Program-made: the position numbers and the translations under genes
Notes under the pieces: model-generated
Seen by the model: only the letters and a program-made list of their open reading frames with translations
Database searches by the model: none
Told to the model about the DNA's origin: nothing
Assembly (NCBI GenBank): GCA_012932865.1
Contig: SAXG01000088.1
Location: forward strand, 1-64,000
Length of the DNA stretch: 64,000 nt
Reading direction: 5' to 3'
Source: Amylostereum areolatum
Lineage: Eukaryota; Basidiomycota; Agaricomycetes; Russulales; Stereaceae
Shown: in pieces, positions 52,282-63,262 of the stretch
How positions within the stretch are numbered: the first letter of the stretch is position 1
Layout of the letters: every line of letters starts with the position of its first letter

Positions 52282-54533
52282 TTATATATCTCTTTGCGCC
52301 TCCCTCCTCCTCACCAGCTCTGCCCTATCCGTTGAGCGTGGACGGATGATGCACTCGTATGGCTTCGGGTACCTAGTCACAGTGGTTCCATTCAGTTCGT
52401 GGTTTGTGAGAAAGAGAGGGAGTATATACCTGATAAGATGGTGGTCGAATTCTTGCACAAGCTTGCCCTCTGCTGGCTCCGAGAAGTTGAAGGAAGCGAG
52501 AAGAGTCGTGATGAAAATGAAAACAGAGTTCTCCCCAAGCTGTTTTCCGGGGCAAATCCTGTTAGGACGATCGCGTGAGACGATCGCGTGGACGATGACG
52601 ACGGAAAATATACCGTCTACCGAAGCCAAATGCCCAGGTGGCAGGATCTACGGTCGGATGGTCCGGGTCTAAGAATCGCTCTGGCATAAACTGGGCCGGA
52701 GGATATTTCGGGTTGGGCTCAAAAGCGAGGGACCTTCACGAAGCACTTATGAGGAGCACGAAACGATGAGTGAAGGCGGTGACGGACCATGAGTTGGGCA
52801 TGATGATAGTATTCTCTGGGATAATGTATCCCTCATATACGTCCGCCTTCTCCGACCGTCGAGCGATACCTGCACTCAGGGTTAGTGACAGCGAAATTGA
52901 AGCGTCAAAAGAGGAGATGCGGACTCAGAGGGAGAACGGGGTTCCAGCGCATCGTCTCCTTGATGACAGCATCGACATAAGGAAGGTCGCCTCGGTCGGC
53001 GATGGTAGGCATTCTGTCAGTACCGATCACGGCGTCGAGTTCTGCCTGGGCCTGGGATTGAGTTGATGGGTTGAGAGCCATAGCGGCAATGAAGTTCAGC
53101 ACTGTCGAATATGTCTGCGACCAGCAGATCGTCAGCGCCTCGTCCGTGCAGGGAGTAGAAGCAACGAACCGTTTCCCCCCCGGCTAACAGGTCTTAGGAT
53201 GAGAGTTGGCACCGAAAATAAATGGATGGCGTACCACCGTACATCGATCCTGGGCTCGTCATTAGCCACATGCATCCCGTCATCGCATTGAAATAGTCAC
53301 ACACCTGTTGTCCACATCACCAACTGTTCATACTCGGCGTGCGACACTTCGTCGTTCGAATCGATGTTGGCAAGTAGGTCTTGGGTAAGAGACGGACGAG
53401 CCACTCCCAAGTCCTATAGTTATGTCAGACCACTGGCACATAGGTATGCATCAGAATGATAACCAGTTTACCATGTCAGCTTTCACCTTCATGAAAGGTC
53501 TTGCGACGAAGTCCGCGATCATGCGCTTGCCTGCTACCGCTTTCTTTTGAAACGGTAGCCACAAAGGAAGATATTTCACTAGCACGAAGGTCAGATGTAA
53601 ACACAAGCTCGGTGGACCGTAAACATACTGCTCGGAATGAGATCGCAGAGATATGCGCCCGGAACTGTCGACTCGCTAATCATTTTCATCGTCGCGTCCG
53701 CTTGAGTTATGTACTACGCCAGACATCAACAGGCTTTCCTTCATCTGAACTCAAATCACGCCACCTCGCTGTCAGCTGTCTTCACGGAAATTCCGTATGT
53801 CACGGCAAGCACGATTCTCCCAGCAGCCCTACAATCACCGTTGAAGCATACCGACAAAGACGACGACAAATGCGTCAAACTCACATGCGAACGTAGTCGA
53901 AAAATTCTTCGGGGTTGTCCAAGATTTCATTCGCGAGCAACGCGGCCATGTCTTCCTGGAGCCCGTGGTACTTCATGACGGCAGATGGTCCCAGCGCCTG
54001 ATGTGCGAGCTTGCGAGTGTGGCGCCATTCCGGACCATAGGGCATGATTGGCATACTCTAGTGACAGAGTATGAGGTTATGAACGCGACCGTGAGGAAGA
54101 GCGCGCCTTGTCAAGTTCCATCAGTTCTCCTACCACAGTGAAAATAGGCCTGTGCGAATTGTTGGTGCCGCGCTTGTCAAGTAAGTCGCTGATGGCCTTG
54201 GCCGAGTTGAGAACGAGGATATTGTTTCCGAGCGCGCGCCAGCCGACTACATCGCCTGAAGAGACATTGATGTTTTGACGTTAGGCCAAGACATGAGGAC
54301 GGTAGGAAGGCCAACGTACCATACTGATACTTCCACTGAGTGAACGTCGTCCAGGGCGCATGCCGGTCGAGGTCAAACACGTTCCCAAGAAAGGGTAGAG
54401 GGCGTGGTCCGGGAAGCCTTGAGGCGGAAGATTTCCTGGGTCTGAAGAACCATAGAGCTAGAAAGAAGAGAGAGGCGGCTATGACGCCTTGGTGAGCCTG
54501 TGTCAACTCGGAGGAGGGTCGAAGAAAGGCCAT
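52282..54533 (-). CDS. cytochrome P450 monooxygenase
   Basis: ER-anchored heme-thiolate monooxygenase. The ATG at 54533 gives an N-terminal anchor ([15 protein letters not shown]) and the hinge [13 protein letters not shown]. Motifs in order: [67 protein letters not shown] (ExxR helix, about 52.96 kb), [18 protein letters not shown] (PERF region) and [15 protein letters not shown], the heme-binding loop with the Cys ligand, split by an intron at about 52.56-52.61 kb. At least ten introns interrupt it, and no stop or frameshift was found in the motif-bearing exons. It resembles the O-methylsterigmatocystin oxidoreductase-like P450s typical of Agaricomycetes. Substrate is unknown, and no other biosynthetic gene lies beside it. 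Its start is only about 250 bp from the inverted repeat of the adjacent mobile segment. Confidence 0.88.
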
Positions 54534-54781
54534 GGTCCTCGTTGTCTTCGTCTACGAAAGCGATTCCCAAGACATTCACAGTCCATCTGAAAACTCACAG
54601 CTGACTCCTGATGCAATTCCCTGAGAATGTGGGAAAGTTCCTTCCAGATACGTAGTTAGATGCCAAATATGTAGGATCCTGAGCTTGCGAAGGTTGACGG
54701 AGTAGCGAAAGAACAACGTCATGACGTCACACGAGTGATGATGTCGGGGCCGGATATTGCCGCCGTGCCACTGCCAGGCAT

Positions 54782-55085
54782 TCACCGCGGGCAGAAGTCC
54801 ATTTGAGCCCGGTTCTCACGCATTCGAAATGCGCGTCGGAAGTACAAATATCAGAAAGCCGTTGTAACTAAGTCTACAAATCCGATATGATCGATTTGTA
54901 ATGTCCATTAGCTCGAAGTGAAGTCAATCAAAACGTGTCGTGTGGAATGTGTATTCGACGGGAAAAAACACATTAGACACGTGAGGTTTCGGACCGCTTA
55001 CGACCGGCTTGAAATGACTTATTTGTGATAGGACTTATTGCGGAGCAAATCGAACTGATACTTCTCGTTTTGGTAGGGATCAAAT
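54782..55085 (+). repeat. left arm of the 304-bp inverted repeat
   Basis: It runs from TCACCGCGGGCAGAAG to TAGGGATCAAAT and is identical, by eye, to the reverse complement of 62959-63262. The last 9 bp (GGATCAAAT, 55077-55085, flanked by TAG on both sides) match the terminus of the MITE present in full in the right arm. Confidence 0.9.
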
Positions 55086-55498
55086 TAGGCTCGGAACCAG
55101 CCGTTACATTCAAGCTCCGCTACGCTACACTGGGTAACGGCTGGGCTCACTCGGGACGTTTTTGGCGGGGGGCAAATCCTGATTTCGACTTAGCGAAATT
55201 TCGCACTTTGCGCGCGGACCTCTTCAAAGCACTTTCTTTCCTCTTTCTCAACACCGTCCTCCATGTTCAAATAAAGTGTCCCCCCCATCATCTATTATGT
55301 CTAAAAAGTAGAAAATAAAGATATACTAGGAGAGACGGCAAAACCGTGACGAGAATCGTCAATTTTCGATGGGGGGAAAGACCCATTAGCCCCACGTGGG
55401 TGGATATCTGAACGACGGGGTGACGGGGCAAGTGAGTTTTGCGAGAAATTTAGCCGTGTTACAAAATACGTACTGCACAGTAGGTGCGCGACGCCGCA
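55086..55498. other. left subterminal region of the mobile segment, non-coding
   Basis: It contains an 11-bp perfect hairpin (CCAGCCGTTAC ... GTAACGGCTGG), the GGCGGGGGGCAAATCCTGAT box shared with the right end, and the helicase 3' flank. Confidence 0.6.
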
Positions 55499-58400
55499 TC
55501 ACCCTCCGAAAGACGAAGGAGGGTGTGGTTGAACTTGAGGGGTTCCCGGCTGAGGCGGCCCTGCACCGCTGAACGACGCGTTCCAACCTGCGAGATATGC
55601 ACCAGGATAGCCTTGGTAATAATGGGTATATGGTGGCCCAGGCGCGGCTTGCCAGTGTTGGACAGGTGAAGAGGGTGTGTACAAATTCTGGAAGGCGGGG
55701 ACATGATGCGGGGGTGTGACAAAGGGGCTTGGGGCTTGAAGATACGGTTGATGAAAGGGAGCGGTGTGCGGGTATGGGTATGCATGCGGGGTAAGCGGAA
55801 GGGACGGTGGCGGCGGTGGAGCTGGACGACTCTGACTTGGACTTTCAGGTGGGAGAAAGGATAACGCAGGACCCGCTGGAGGGAGCTGAAACGACGCAGA
55901 CGTCGACGCCGCGCGCAATGAATGAGATGGCGGACGCGATACAGGAGTGGAGGGTGTGCGGTTCGAGTGTGGAGGTGCAGAGGCGTGAGAGGTTTGAGAT
56001 GGATCGACGCGCCATTCTGCGAGCGAGCTTGAACTTGAAGGTGCTGCATGCGAGTGGACATAGCTCTGAACCTGGAAAGAATGGGAGAGGGTGGGCGCCG
56101 GGAGCGGAGGAGGTTGTGCGGTTTGCGAGGCTGTCGCGGTCGGCGTGGGAGTGAGAGGTGAGCAATCGGGCGCCCGTGTCCTGGGTTTTTTCCGAGCGCG
56201 AGCACTGCCATCCTCATCACCTCCGAGCGTCCTCTGGGTGTCGAGATTGGCGACTCCATCCACGGCATCGTCCCTGGACGCCTGCAACCGTTTGGCGGAG
56301 CGCGGTGGCTGGAGAACAGGAGAGGGAGGCGGCGCCGACGCAAGGATGTCTTGCCCTGTATTAGGATCGAGGCTCGTCGAGGACTCGGATGGAGGGCCGG
56401 AACCTTGTGCTTCTGTCGCTGACACGGAATCGTGAGGGGCGATGGGCTGTGGTGCTGTCAGGGCTGTCGAGGGTCCGAGGAGATGGGTGGTAAGTTGGTG
56501 TTGGTATTGTGTCCACAGAGGCCATGAGCGCGCGAGGACACCCGATATGGTGATTGCGGTGAGTGGCCCTTTGAGTTTTGCAATCTTCTCGATGGCTTCA
56601 TCTGGCAGGATAGCTTCAGGTGTCATGAACGCGTAAGACGGGCTGAGTGCGAAGACATCTTCACGCCAGCTGTACAACGATGCCAAACGCGCGGCCGTAG
56701 GTTCACGGTCGTATGTCAACCGAGGACCTGCTGTCACCGAAGACTTCCGGCCTGGGCGAATACGATCGAGAAGATTAGGAGCACATATGTCGCAACAAGG
56801 GACGGTAGGCGCTATGAAACAAAAGATAAGTCGTCGCTTTGTTCGAGTACGATGCTATGCCAGTGCTCACCGGGTTCAGGGTTGTCGAACACCTGGCGGA
56901 GAACCTCCCTTCGACACTGCGTCGTCTGGACAAAGTGAAGAAGACCCTCGGTGGTATCGTCCTCGTCAACTGGTGGGGTTTCGCTGCCCGGCGGAACGGG
57001 ATCGTCATGGCCACTAGGACCACCCCGGAATCGTCCTCGAGAACGTGCGTAATTCTTGTCGTTGGCTTTCTTGCGCGCTGCCTTGGGTGCTGATCGTGAT
57101 TTACCCTTGCTGGGTGTTTTCGCGGTTTCAGGTGACCGGTCGCCCTGCCCAAGATCGGTTGAGTACGCCGATGGCTCAACCAGTAAAACAGCGAGGCCTT
57201 GGGTGTCGGGCGCACGCGCGGCACGTCCCGCTCGCTGCACGAAGCTGGACAATTTACCCGGCAGCTTCCACTGGACAACCCTCTCGATGTCAAGTATGTT
57301 ACAACCCTGAAAACGTAGTGAGTTTGACGTCCTCTCACAAAGAACGGGCCACTGACCATGCCCGCTGCGTCGGTGCACATCAACACGCGAATCTCCCCCG
57401 AGCGGAAGAGTGCCATGGCTTGATCCCGGTACTCGTTATCGTGCGCGGCATTATAAGGGCGGATGACGCCATGTAGGTTGTCGGGTAAGAGGGTGCGGAG
57501 GTGATCGATAATCTCGCTGCCGTTCGTGATGTTGTCCGCGTAGATCCATGTTTTTGGGATGTCGGTGGCGACTCGCACTCCAGACGGGATGACAAAATCC
57601 AGGTCCACATAGGAGGAAATTGGGTGGTGGATAGCGCGGACAGCAAGGGAGACATTGCCTCTATCATTGCCTAGGTTTTTGTGTAGGAATGGGCCACGGT
57701 TCAATTGAAGTTTGTTGATGATGTCTCGGGTGACGCGTCTAGTGAGAGAGGCCGAAACGGCAATGAAAGGTACTGTACGAGGTAGGAAGGCCCGTATCAT
57801 CCCAATTTCCCCGTACTTCTTGCGAAACTCGGCTCCCCAGTGTGAGATGCAGTGCGCCTCGTCGATGACGACCGAGTAGATGCGGCTTGCAAAGGCGTGG
57901 TTGCGCAGGACACGATCGATGAACCGCCGTGAAACAAGCATTTCAGGCGAGATCAAAACAATACGATAATCGCCGTGAATGATAGCCTAAGTTGGGTGTT
58001 AAAATCGAGTGGAATGGCGAGGAGAATGGAGCATACATCAAGGGTTCCGTCTGTGCATCCGCCATGGGAGCTGTTCACCGCAACGGCGGCCAAATTGAAC
58101 TCGTTCCTAAAGGTTTGCACCTAGCATCCGGACAGTGCAATGAGCAAGACTGTATAGCCCTGAATATGACGGAACACACCATCTCGTTCTGAAGCCCAAT
58201 GAGAGGAGATATCATGAGGGTGACCTTATCCTGGTTTTGGGGGAGTGCATAGGGCCCCGCCGCGATCGCCGTCTTTCCTTGGCCCGTCGCTGCCTGGCAC
58301 AGCGCATCTCTCCGTTCTTCTTGAGATTGAACCATATCGAGTTGAAATGGGCGGGGATCTTTCCCGCCAAATTGCTCTTTCATGAGCCTGCGAATCTCTT

Positions 58401-58530
58401 CAAGCTCTTGCGGTGTGAGGGTCCGTGCGGGCTCAGCAGGTGGCCGTTGGCTCCGACTATTGGCTGGGGCACGGCGGGTGGTGCGAGAACGTCGAACCTT
58501 GTGGGAAGCGGCATGGGGACGCGAGGACAT
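55499..58530 (-). CDS. RecQ-type ATP-dependent DNA helicase
   Basis: Superfamily 2 helicase carried inside the mobile segment. The ATG at 58530 opens MSSRPHAASHKVRRSRTTRR, a basic leader. Motifs in order: PFQLDMVQ (motif 0), ATGQGKT (Walker A), MISPLIGLQNEM (Ia), VVIDEAHCISHWG (Walker B, DEAH plus the RecQ aromatic loop start), IAVSAS (III), TWIYADN (IV), VLMCTDAAGMGCNI (V, across an intron) and FVQRAGRAAR (VI). A RecQ-like zinc region follows (QTTQCRREVLRQVF ... PCCDICAP). The C-terminal ~350 aa are Pro/Ser/Thr-rich and probably disordered, open to the stop at 55499. Catalytic residues look intact. Cellular RecQ genes have RQC/HRDC domains, which I do not see. That and the setting suggest a transposon-borne copy. 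It shares a 243-bp divergent promoter with the DUF6589 gene. Confidence 0.87.
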
Positions 58531-58773
58531 GATATAGGGTGAGTGTGGAGCAATGGGAGGAGGTCACTATGGTGGTGGGACGGAGCAAGATAGGAGACCT
58601 TTGTCATTTGAAACAAAATTTATACACTTGTTAGGAGGTGTCCGTCGCCGTTCGTCCCACCCTCTCACTCAGCTCTTGCGCACAGTGCATCTCTCCACGC
58701 ATCCCCAGGACCCACATTTCGAAGGCCTCCTATCAGAAAAGTGTGAAGAACAAGGACATAGTAGCGAACCTTC
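58531..58773. promoter_or_regulatory. divergent promoter between helicase and DUF6589 genes
   Basis: 243 bp between the two opposite start codons. It is compact, as expected for a self-contained element. No consensus box is evident. Confidence 0.45.
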
Positions 58774-61700
58774 ATGCCTTCCAGCTTGCCATCCTCGTCA
58801 CCCCCCGCGCCGTCGTCGCCTTTATCCGTCCTCCCGTCTTCACCAATCGCAGTTCCGTCCAATGTAGTGCCACTGCCCGCACCGCAATTTGGTGAACGTG
58901 CCGACACTCAAACCCCCGAACCCGGCACACTTTCTGGACCACAGCCCTTGACTCGACTGAGCTCTCCCGATTCTCCTATACCAGGATATCCTCCACTTCC
59001 CCGACCGGTGACCCCTGAACGGTATAGGGGGAGGGAGCTCCTCGGCGCCGATGGCAGTGATCCCGGTGTGTACGCGTCTTCTCCTATTCGAACCAAAGAG
59101 GATCGGCGGCGGAAAGGGCGCAAACAGCGCGATGACACGATAGCGGCACGAAGTGGACCTGAAGAGCAACAACGGTTGGATAATGAGGAAGCTGAAGAGG
59201 AAGCCAAACGTACAACCATTGTGGAGGCATTGACCATCCTTGAAGAAGGCGACGTGACGATGGGAGAGCTCCTACTCTACGTGTTTGACCCCCAAAATCT
59301 CTCGCGAGGTTGGCGTTGGACTCAGTTCTTCTCCAAGCCTGCGGTTGTTCACCGAGTCCTGGAGTGGTGGGCCTCAAAGTCAGACAAGTCGAAGCGTGCG
59401 CGGGAGACTGTCGAAGAAGGAGTGATGAGTATTGCAGTCAAGGTCGTTGGCCACGAGGCAAATCGAATCACCAAACTCAAACTACTTTTCCCGCCTGCCA
59501 CAATCGATAAAGCGTTCGTGCTGGGCATGGATTTTCACTCTCAATGCAATATCCTGCAAGAGCATGGCCGGAATATATTGCACCTCTTCAAGGCCGTCGC
59601 GACGACTGAACGGCAAGAGATTGAATGTTCTCCCGCAAAGCTGGAACATAAGGAGTTTGTAAGTGTCGTATATTTGTACAATACTGCGGCGGGGAATGCT
59701 TACCTTCCAATGTCACAGCTCGCAGCAACGAGCGCAATCACACTGCTGGGAGAACGGAGCCAGCGTAACTCGTATTCCCGGCACGTTCTCGGCCTATACC
59801 TCTACTCAACTGGAGCCAGCCGCCAGCACATCAGTGTCTTGAACCACCTAGGATTGAGTGTCAGCTATGTGACCTTAGCAGGCCGAGGGGGGAAAAGCCT
59901 GGACTCACTGTTTGACAACTCGGAAGTTGACAGCATTCACGAACCTTCGAGTGAGGATGCAGAACCTCAACCGCTTTCCGTCTCGCCCCGTGCAGCCACC
60001 GTTCAAGACCTCGATACTGCGAACAGCAACAATCTCAGTCCTCCAGCCGCTACACAACCTCTCGCCGCTGTCTCGGCTACATTGACACCGAGTCCTACCC
60101 CGCAAGCTGAACCGCGCATCCATGCGGTCCAATCCCCTGTACCCGCGCTGGCACCTTCAGGCCCAAAGATATCAAAAAAAGTGCGCCGGAGAATGGGCAC
60201 ACTTGAACACCTTTCTCGATCCATGCGACGTCTCGCAAGGATGGTCGCTGCGTCCCAACATATCTTGGTCGTCTATGACAATATCAATATGATGTGGAAA
60301 TCCCCCGAGCAGGTGATAGGACGCACCGGTATGTTCCAGCTTTCTGTTCACCTGCCAGGTCCTCAGTTGTATGATGTATCCAGATACCCAGGAAAATGGG
60401 ACGTGCGCGACGACAATACCGCTGTTCGGAGCAGATGACGAAGCTATGAAAACTGGTCAGCTTGACGAAGCTATTGATAAAGCCGGCCCCCTCCTGCCCG
60501 AAGACATAATACTCACACCTGACGAAAGAACGCGGGCTCGGGAATATATGATTCATACAGTTCTCCGCATTGCCGTCCGGTTTGGTGGCGAGAAGATGCA
60601 AGTGCACCGTAAGAACGTCAAAGAATCAGAACCTATCACAGAGCACAAGATACCGTTGCACATTACCGAAGTCTACCCTCTGCCTGCTTTCAACATCAAC
60701 GAGTCCTCCATCACAGGCAACGCGGAGGTAATCCAAGCAATTGTTAAGGAACTTGGGTTTGATACAGAGAAGAAGGAGTTCGCAGAGACCATTAAGTTGG
60801 TGGCAGGTGACCAGTTGTCGATTGCACGGTTGCGTGCTGTGGCGGCAGTGAGAGCAGGAAACGAGGGAGGTGCGTCGGCGATGCGATGGGCGCTTTTCGT
60901 TCCTGGGCTCTTCCACTACAAGCTCGCCGCAACCCACGGCATCATGCAAACCTACCTCGGCCTCGTCAATCATGATTTCACAAACCCCGCCTCTCTCGCC
61001 GCCCACAACACACTACTCAAGCGTAAACCCATCACACCAACCTCTCTCCCCCCTTTCCGTACTTGCCGTGACTTGATCTTTGTTTCATTATATGCACGGG
61101 TCCTTCATTGTCTCCTCCTCGTGTCCGACAAGGCCTCCCTCGACGACTACGCTGAAAACCTAGAATGGGACGACCTGCAACGTCACGCTACAGCTGTTGT
61201 CGACAAGTATGCAAGCCCGGATGTTGCCTACAACCTCCGCAAAGAGCGCGTTCAGAAGGGCGAAGGGCACGGCGACATGGTCTTTGAAAGCGGCGTCCTC
61301 TTCATCCGCGACAGTCTCCACCTCCGCGACTTCACCGATGCAATCAAATCTGGCGACATGGGACGTGTCATCTTGGTCCTCAAAATATGGGCATGCAGCT
61401 TCCGTGCTCAAGGACGCCTAAAGTACGCGCTGGAGGTCCTGTATCTTATACACAACATCACGCGTGTCTGGCCGCCATCTTTAACGTGAGCACCCCTTCC
61501 CAATCAAATTCACATCTCACCAGTCACGGGCAGCGCGGTCGTATTCAAGAACTGCCTAGTCAATCCCACCGGAAAGCCGAACGCGTGGTCAGAAGTCGAC
61601 CTTCTGCAGGAGCACTTGAACTTCTGGATAAAGGTACGTTCTTATTTTTTGAACTATGTTTTTCACGCTTACACTTGGCGGATAGGACTACTACAAAGCT

Positions 61701-62440
61701 CATGGTAGCGGCGCATCATGGGAATGGCTCGGGACCATCGCTCCTTGCGTGGAGATCTTGCGCAAGCTCGCTACCCAGGTCCATGGCACCCTCGGCTCCA
61801 AGCAGGGCAACATTCATGCCGATGCTGATCTCACGGAAGACATTGATGAACTCATGGGCAGCCTTGCACACCACCGGGTTTATGTGGTGGAACATGGCCG
61901 CCATTTCGAAGCCAACGACCCCACCACCGCCGTCGACGTCATCACAGCAGGTTACAACAAACTTACATACGGTGCCCCTTCGCCTCTTCAGCAGTTCAAC
62001 GACGCCTTTGCGATTCTCCAGCAGCGTCGAAGAATTCACCCGCTCGTCGGTGCCAGTCCCAGTGAGCACGCTACAGCTCTGCCCACTGTCGATGGTAAGC
62101 CGATACATCCTTATCAGCCATGATTACAATGTTCATACATCTACTCGTACAGGTCCCTGATCCTAACTCCAGCTTTGCCGATGAGTCGACAATGTCATCA
62201 GCATCCTCCGACACATCCTCCGACACATCCTCCGACACATCGGAAGAAGCGGCGATCGCAGCGGCCATGGACAACATACCCTCACAACCTGATCTTGATC
62301 TATTAAGTGGGGAGGATGTGGCATTGGACATGGATGGAGGGTATTGGCTTGATGAAGATGCTGAGTCTGACATAGAGTTTGACGAAGAGAATAATCCTGA
62401 CAGTGATATTGACGCTATTTCTTCTGACAATGATGACTAA
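58774..62440 (+). CDS. DUF6589 domain protein (putative transposase-like)
   Basis: The ATG at 58774 opens a Ser/Pro-rich leader (MPSSLPSSSPPAPSSPLSVL). A conserved region follows: LSRGWRWTQFFSKPAVVHRV, ILVVYDNINMMWKSPEQVIG and, after an intron (60329-60383), DTQENGTCATTIPLF. Next is the DUF6589 core (VAGDQLSIARLRAVAAV; WALFVPGLFHYKLAATHGIM; NCLVNPTGKPNAWSEVDLLQ; EHLNFWIK; DYYKAHGSGASWEWL). The tail is acidic (ESTMSSASSDTSSDTSSDTS; YWLDEDAESDIEFDEENNPD). DUF6589 proteins are abundant in mushrooms and some invertebrates and are usually thought to be transposon-derived. Acidic residues in YDN, GDQ and NEVDLLQE-like contexts could be catalytic, but that is a guess. The last join, around 62.10-62.16 kb, is not resolved: the best GTAAGC donor gives a stop 9 nt after the nearest acceptor, so the acidic tail may need another acceptor. 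Confidence 0.83.
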
Positions 62441-62722
62441 ACAGATATGTACATCACTTGTATCTATTTAGAAGCCGGGAAATGAGGGTAACGAGTGTCG
62501 GGAGCCACTTGACGGTGCAGGAGGAAGCATAGCTTTGCGCGCAAAACATGAAATTTCGCTAAGTCGGGATCAGGATTGGCCCCCCGCCAAAACCGCCCCA
62601 AGTGTGCCCAGGCTGTATGGAGATTCCACGGCAGGCCGGCTGGAATGAGACTCCGCTTGCGCTCTCATTCCGGACGGTCGGCGTCATGCTTGGTAATCTC
62701 CATCAGCCTGGTCACGAGGCTA

Positions 62723-62967
62723 GGATCAAATGCAACATTTTGAACCTGTGTTCTCCGAGATAAAACACATTAGAAATCTGTTCCTCAGGAACTAATGAAC
62801 GGCTGGATTGAGGACTTGTGCACTTGAGGGTTGATACAGGCAAGGGCTCACCATATCCCCACACAGGTGCACAAGGCTTGAGTCCAGCCATTCATGAGTT
62901 CCTGAGGAACAGATTTCTAATGTGTTTTATCTCGGAGAACACAGGTTCAAAATGTTGCATTTGATCC
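62723..62967. mobile_element. MITE, 245 bp, with ~84-bp terminal inverted repeats and CTA flanks
   Basis: Left arm 62723-62806 (GGATCAAATGCAACATTTTG onward) is the reverse complement of 62884-62967 with only two mismatches near the inner end, so it can fold into a long hairpin. Both sides are flanked by CTA (62720-62722 and 62968-62970), a likely 3-bp target duplication of the PIF/Harbinger type. No ORF. It sits exactly where the left copy of the large inverted repeat holds only a 9-bp remnant. Confidence 0.85.
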
Positions 62968-63262
62968 CTACCAAAACGAGAAGTATCAGTTCGATTTGCT
63001 CCGCAATAAGTCCTATCACAAATAAGTCATTTCAAGCCGGTCGTAAGCGGTCCGAAACCTCACGTGTCTAATGTGTTTTTTCCCGTCGAATACACATTCC
63101 ACACGACACGTTTTGATTGACTTCACTTCGAGCTAATGGACATTACAAATCGATCATATCGGATTTGTAGACTTAGTTACAACGGCTTTCTGATATTTGT
63201 ACTTCCGACGCGCATTTCGAATGCGTGAGAACCGGGCTCAAATGGACTTCTGCCCGCGGTGA
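62959..63262 (-). repeat. right arm of the 304-bp inverted repeat
   Basis: Reverse complement of 54782-55085 over its full length. It begins inside the MITE terminus (ATTTGATCC) and ends at CTGCCCGCGGTGA. Beyond it a weaker match (GCCTGG against CCAGGC) continues for a few bases. Confidence 0.9.

Follow-up and report, generated by a model that had tools for sequence, protein, structure and literature searches.

A RecQ-type helicase and DUF6589 gene pair of Amylostereum areolatum as a DNA transposon, most likely of the AcademH lineage, nested in an unrelated palindromic repeat

We analysed 64,000 nucleotides of the agaricomycete Amylostereum areolatum (contig SAXG01000088.1, positions 1 to 64,000, forward strand; hereafter the window), in which a RecQ-type helicase gene and a DUF6589 gene lie between two long inverted repeats. 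We consider it likely that positions 55086-62722 are a two-gene DNA transposon, with the DUF6589 protein as its DDE transposase and AcademH as its most likely lineage, inserted into an unrelated palindrome of about 834 bp. An earlier note on this DNA had reported perfect inverted repeats of 304 bp around the two genes and had taken them for the ends of the mobile element. The repeats were described correctly: over 304 nt, 54782-55085 is the exact reverse complement of 62959-63262, and the genes between them are divergent, 243 bp apart. Their interpretation as element termini, however, is rejected by an empty site in the same genome. The left flank ends at 55085 and the right flank resumes at 62723; joined once at a nine-base overlap, the two flanks give 835 bp, and the alignment of 834 of these to the locus C167:115258-116091 (L012) has four mismatches and no gap (99.5%). 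The overlap corresponds to nine bases of this uninterrupted copy, which is a same-genome empty site for the window element, and the inserted element is therefore 55086-62722. It ends in imperfect terminal inverted repeats (TIRs) of about 17 bp, TAGGCTCGGAACCAGCC and TAGCCTCGTGACCAGGC, and is flanked on both sides by an exact 9-bp target site duplication (TSD), GGATCAAAT. The 304-bp repeats and the two genes thus belong to two different elements, the transposon being nested in the palindrome. A single 8.5-kb transposon terminated by the 304-bp repeats would account for their perfection and for their bracketing of both genes, but the repeats recur as palindromes of about 834 bp without the two genes, and the gapless empty site together with the 9-bp TSD places the ends at 55086 and 62722. 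Moreover, copies on C128, C145, C111 and C94 share the same or related inner ends, and the 44 full or partial matches to one arm in the window's own genome include no locus on these four contigs. We regard such a composite element as extremely improbable.

The ends defined in this way recur in the genome. Both ends were located in 18 related elements, 16 of which carry exact 9-bp TSDs (all eight of one set and eight of the ten in a chosen set), the exceptions being C117, with one mismatch, and C23b, with five. The set of ten was chosen from a TIR pattern list by requiring a partner TIR at a sensible distance, and in the case of C117 this partner was a 3-mismatch match. With up to three mismatches allowed, the pattern search gave 78 + 56 matches against 73 + 80 for a reversed control; since the total is at control level, a lone 3-mismatch match is uninformative. 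A divergent copy on C66 and the copy on C70 were left out of the count because the right end of the former and the left end of the latter were searched for and not found, and the single ends C66:384001 and C178:30228 were not used. The copies on C128, C145, C111 and C94 all carry 9-bp TSDs, although the TSD of C145 can also be read as 10 bp because G replaces T at the start of this copy. In the sister copy C128:811685-841080 the ends, each with the TSD CCTTTGGCC, now lie about 29 kb apart; this copy has been split by a later rearrangement. A second lineage, in which the genes are convergent, is 6764 bp long and has a perfect 17-bp TIR, TAGACTCGAACCAGTCC, seven such TIR pairs being present in the pattern search. 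Its TIRs also bound four miniature elements of 86-98 bp (L063-L066, on C45, C95, C174 and C117), three of which have exact 9-bp TSDs. Finally, the 3.3-kb element C3:15059-18370 has TIRs that match and a 9-bp TSD free of mismatches; it contains a helicase match but no DUF6589 match, and it was therefore perhaps mobilised in trans. Both this element and the miniature ones belong to the chosen set of ten.

The two genes also recur together. The 112 DUF6589 matches in this genome represent 58 loci, not all independent because several are identical copies of one family, and at least 39 of them have a match to the window helicase on the opposite strand within 4.1 kb; this number is probably an underestimate, as a single helicase frame served as the query. 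A chance neighbourhood, for which 0.8 pairs within 8 kb would be expected, was rejected. One further locus has its helicase match on the same strand, 7.8 kb away, and the remaining 18 lack such a match; conversely, 10 of 50 helicase matches are without a DUF6589 neighbour within 8 kb. The linkage pointed out in the earlier note is therefore a recurrent one, and its view of the two genes as a mobile unit is supported: RecQ and DUF6589 form a recurring transposon unit. The divergent layout, in contrast, is not the rule, as 32 of the 39 pairs are convergent and only seven divergent. An overlap of one or two bases occurs in two convergent pairs, and the other 37 pairs are spaced by 1.7-4.1 kb. For a comparison of the partners 20 pairs were taken, and 19 could be used; the exception was C56, for which there was no usable alignment. 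The four divergent pairs outside the window share 49-97% identity with the window pair for DUF6589 and 60-97% for the helicase, versus 24-33% and 28-37%, respectively, for the convergent pairs, and pairwise identities are correlated between the two genes, with r = 0.90 for 169 non-independent pairs. The divergent copies cluster in the helicase tree, together with the orphan helicase of C63, with a support of 0.895; the corresponding cluster in the DUF6589 tree is weak (0.453).

The DUF6589 protein is very probably a DDE transposase, judging from the conservation of three acidic residues and from its predicted fold. One plus-strand frame of the window matches Pfam DUF6589 with an E value of 6.4e-103, and four proposed GT-AG introns, placed by eye on the sequence rather than from transcripts, keep the frame open to the stop. 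The proposed catalytic D, D and E are conserved in the sequences compared, with a single gap at the second D (Table 1). An AlphaFold model (predicted local distance difference test score 85) gives Hermes, P-element, RAG1 and Transib as its best structural matches and suggests a hAT-like DDE core with a helical insertion, in line with the RNase H-like core that the earlier note proposed to look for; taken alone, the Foldseek scores were weak (best E 2e-2). At the sequence level, a DUF6589 protein had no credible match in the PDB (best E 0.35). In the solved structures of Hermes, P-element, RAG1 and Transib, a large helical insertion precedes the E. DUF6589 thus resembles these enzymes in its predicted core and insertion, but with only 8-14% identity in the structural alignments, and none of them is known to have a helicase partner. 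In addition, the 9-bp TSDs found here differ from those of hAT elements, usually 8 bp and 5, 6 or 7 bp in side lineages (PMC12730594).

The helicase gene of the window is distributed over several open frames, which introns can connect. One of these frames matches TIGR00614 (recQ_fam) with an E value of 2.5e-23 and 82.6 bits, below the whole-protein cut-off of 219.8, and the Pfam DEAD score slightly exceeds its cut-off; RecQ, WRN and BLM chains were matched in the PDB. The protein carries ATGQGKT, DEAHCISHWG, QRAGRAAR and a Cys-rich CCDIC motif, which we take to be RecQ helicase motifs. Helitrons also bring their own helicase and occur in fungi and others, but are not known to have TIRs or TSDs. 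The presence here of TIRs, TSDs and a predicted DDE core led to the rejection of a Helitron, whose nuclease is of the HUH/Y1 type (PMC12730594).

The lineage that best fits these features is already in print. AcademH elements have TSDs of 9 or 10 bp, for which a link to their helicase was suggested (PMC10045372), and they are found at low copy number in Basidiomycota, Ascomycota and Mucoromycota (PMC10799480); both papers credit the lineage to Kojima 2020. Among fungal Academ copies, 1,568 of 1,938 had recognisable domains, such as DEAD/DEAH helicase and recQ_fam, and the copies were often annotated as host genes (PMC6416283). The window element likewise encodes a helicase, makes duplications within this size range and lives in a basidiomycete. 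On account of its RecQ-like helicase, its 9-bp duplications and its fungal host, we place the element most likely in the known AcademH lineage, the likeness being drawn from published features (TSD, helicase and host). A trait that may set the elements here apart from AcademH is the position of the helicase, either upstream and divergent or downstream and convergent. The earlier note went too far in calling the system poorly described, since Academ elements that bear a helicase and have TSDs of 9-10 bp have been published (PMC10045372, PMC6416283).

Alternatively, DUF6589 could define a DDE superfamily of its own, made up of Agaricomycete transposons and apart from Academ, with TAGNCTCG ends and 9-bp TSDs, which gained RecQ independently of AcademH and KolobokH and came to exist in two gene arrangements, with the helicase upstream and divergent or downstream and convergent. 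We judge this scenario unlikely, although several observations are in its favour. One search gave 403 DUF6589 proteins at E<=0.001, and among the best 120 listed only Agaricomycetes appear where the organism is named; the same holds for the matches listed in protein searches for rust or animal relatives. Neither Pfam nor NCBIfam offered a credible second family for DUF6589, the best other hit being RUN (E 0.0065, in 6 of 34). The closest solved folds are those of hAT and P element, and KolobokH provides a precedent for a RecQ helicase joined to another fungal transposase (PMC9587614). Against a separate superfamily, TSD length, a recQ_fam helicase and a fungal host all agree with AcademH as published. 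KolobokH itself, the other RecQ-bearing lineage of DNA transposons and one known only from fungi (PMC9587614), resembles the window element in host and helicase. Nevertheless, the Kolobok TSD is the 4-bp TTAA (PMC9587614), whereas here 16 of 18 elements have 9-bp TSDs without a TTAA consensus; no TTAA duplication was seen, KolobokH was rejected, and we give this assignment almost no credence. The GLFH motif (G464 and H467 of P0001) is conserved in DUF6589 and can be compared with the C/DxxH found between the second D and the E in KolobokH, as a candidate position only.

We propose the following scenario, in which the enzymology, including the mode of excision, is read from products alone (ends, TSDs and copies). 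The DUF6589 protein would presumably bind the TIRs of about 17 bp together with the subterminal repeats, a pair (55141-55215 and 62537-62611) that was overlooked in the earlier note and is a possible transposase-binding site. It would then cut and join the element to its target with a 9-nt stagger, giving rise to the 9-bp duplications. Melting or remodelling, either of the ends or of the strand-transfer intermediate, is the probable task of the RecQ-type helicase and would allow excision, integration or gap repair to be completed; the helicase may also assist in resolving the product. The 243 bp between the two start codons may act as the promoter of both genes.

DUF6589 is a Pfam family with many members whose function has so far been unexplained. 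In the literature library searched, no paper names DUF6589, and the papers retrieved there for PF20231 are unrelated by title; within this literature, a transposase role for DUF6589 in RecQ-carrying elements appears to be new, and so, perhaps, are the two opposite gene arrangements. If this assignment is true, DUF6589 proteins and their RecQ partners can be removed from host gene catalogues. Elements with defined ends, short derivatives and identical copies are also a suitable material for testing the role of a transposon-borne RecQ. Lastly, the window calls for caution, as long perfect repeats on either side of two genes can be part of the target and not of the passenger.

Table 1. Features of the element and its insertion site (window positions)
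Feature	Position	Strand	Remark
Host palindromic repeat, left piece (= left 304-bp arm)	54782..55085	+	matches uninterrupted ~834-bp copies, e.g. C167:115258-116091
Target site duplication GGATCAAAT, copy 1	55077..55085	+	single occurrence in empty copy L012
RecQ/DUF6589 transposon, 7637 bp	55086..62722	.	same-genome empty site
Left TIR TAGGCTCGGAACCAGCC	55086..55102	+	identical end in C128; C145 differs at first base; C111, C94 related
Left subterminal inverted repeat, 75 nt, 85%	55141..55215	+	
RecQ-type superfamily 2 (SF2) helicase gene, several exons	55499..58530	-	start codon 58530-58528, stop 55501-55499
Divergent intergenic region, 243 bp between start codons	58531..58773	.	
DUF6589 gene, four proposed introns, 1044 aa	58774..62123	+	start codon 58774, stop 62121-62123
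Proposed catalytic D1 codon (YDNIN; D273 of P0001)	60277..60279	+	D in 91/91
Proposed catalytic D2 codon (AGDQL; D432 of P0001)	60809..60811	+	D in 90/91, one gap
Proposed catalytic E codon (LLQEHLNFWIK; E683 of P0001)	61610..61612	+	E in 91/91
Right subterminal inverted repeat	62537..62611	-	
Right TIR TAGCCTCGTGACCAGGC, inward reading	62706..62722	-	
Target site duplication GGATCAAAT, copy 2	62723..62731	+	
Host palindromic repeat, right piece (centre + right 304-bp arm)	62723..63262	+	

The window copy shows some peculiarities at the end of its DUF6589 gene. A proposed fifth intron (62095-62152) would place a stop directly after the splice, and the frame of the acidic tail (62153-62440) remains unjoined with or without this intron. 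At 62153, where the acidic C-terminal tail starts, the window copy lacks 23 bp that are present in its sisters on C128 and C145. Elsewhere in the genome, the locus L081 (C153:169600-173600) represents a divergent DUF6589 lineage in which NDQ replaces the usual GDQ, and its DUF6589 match overlaps that of a convergent helicase by a base or two. Another relative in the same genome, L006, is 91% identical, at 91% coverage, to a protein of the agaricomycete Amylostereum chailletii. Viral contigs contained no relative. Contig C18 begins inside the element, and over 2268 bp its stretch C18:1-2263 (L011) matches the right side of the window at 99.4%; C18 could represent the second haplotype or be a redundant contig. 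Outside the TSD set, C139 holds a possible TIR pair 28 kb apart.

As for the host repeat, its centre in the window is an inverted repeat (62723-62836 and 62854-62967) that was absent from the earlier note. The copy L012 is a near-perfect palindrome with arms of 408 nt, 97% complementary, around a 17-nt spacer, and several of the arm matches are facing pairs about 830 bp apart. Together with other copies, L012 and the window flanks form a family of near-perfect palindromes of about 834 bp with the ends TCACCGCGGGC; no clear target duplication of the palindrome itself was seen in the eight copies inspected. Arm fragments of about 45-72 bp were matched at many loci. In the window, an open reading frame on the minus strand (54177-54551), with a motif that presumably resembles the N-terminus of a cytochrome P450, lies some 250 bp away from the palindrome's left end.

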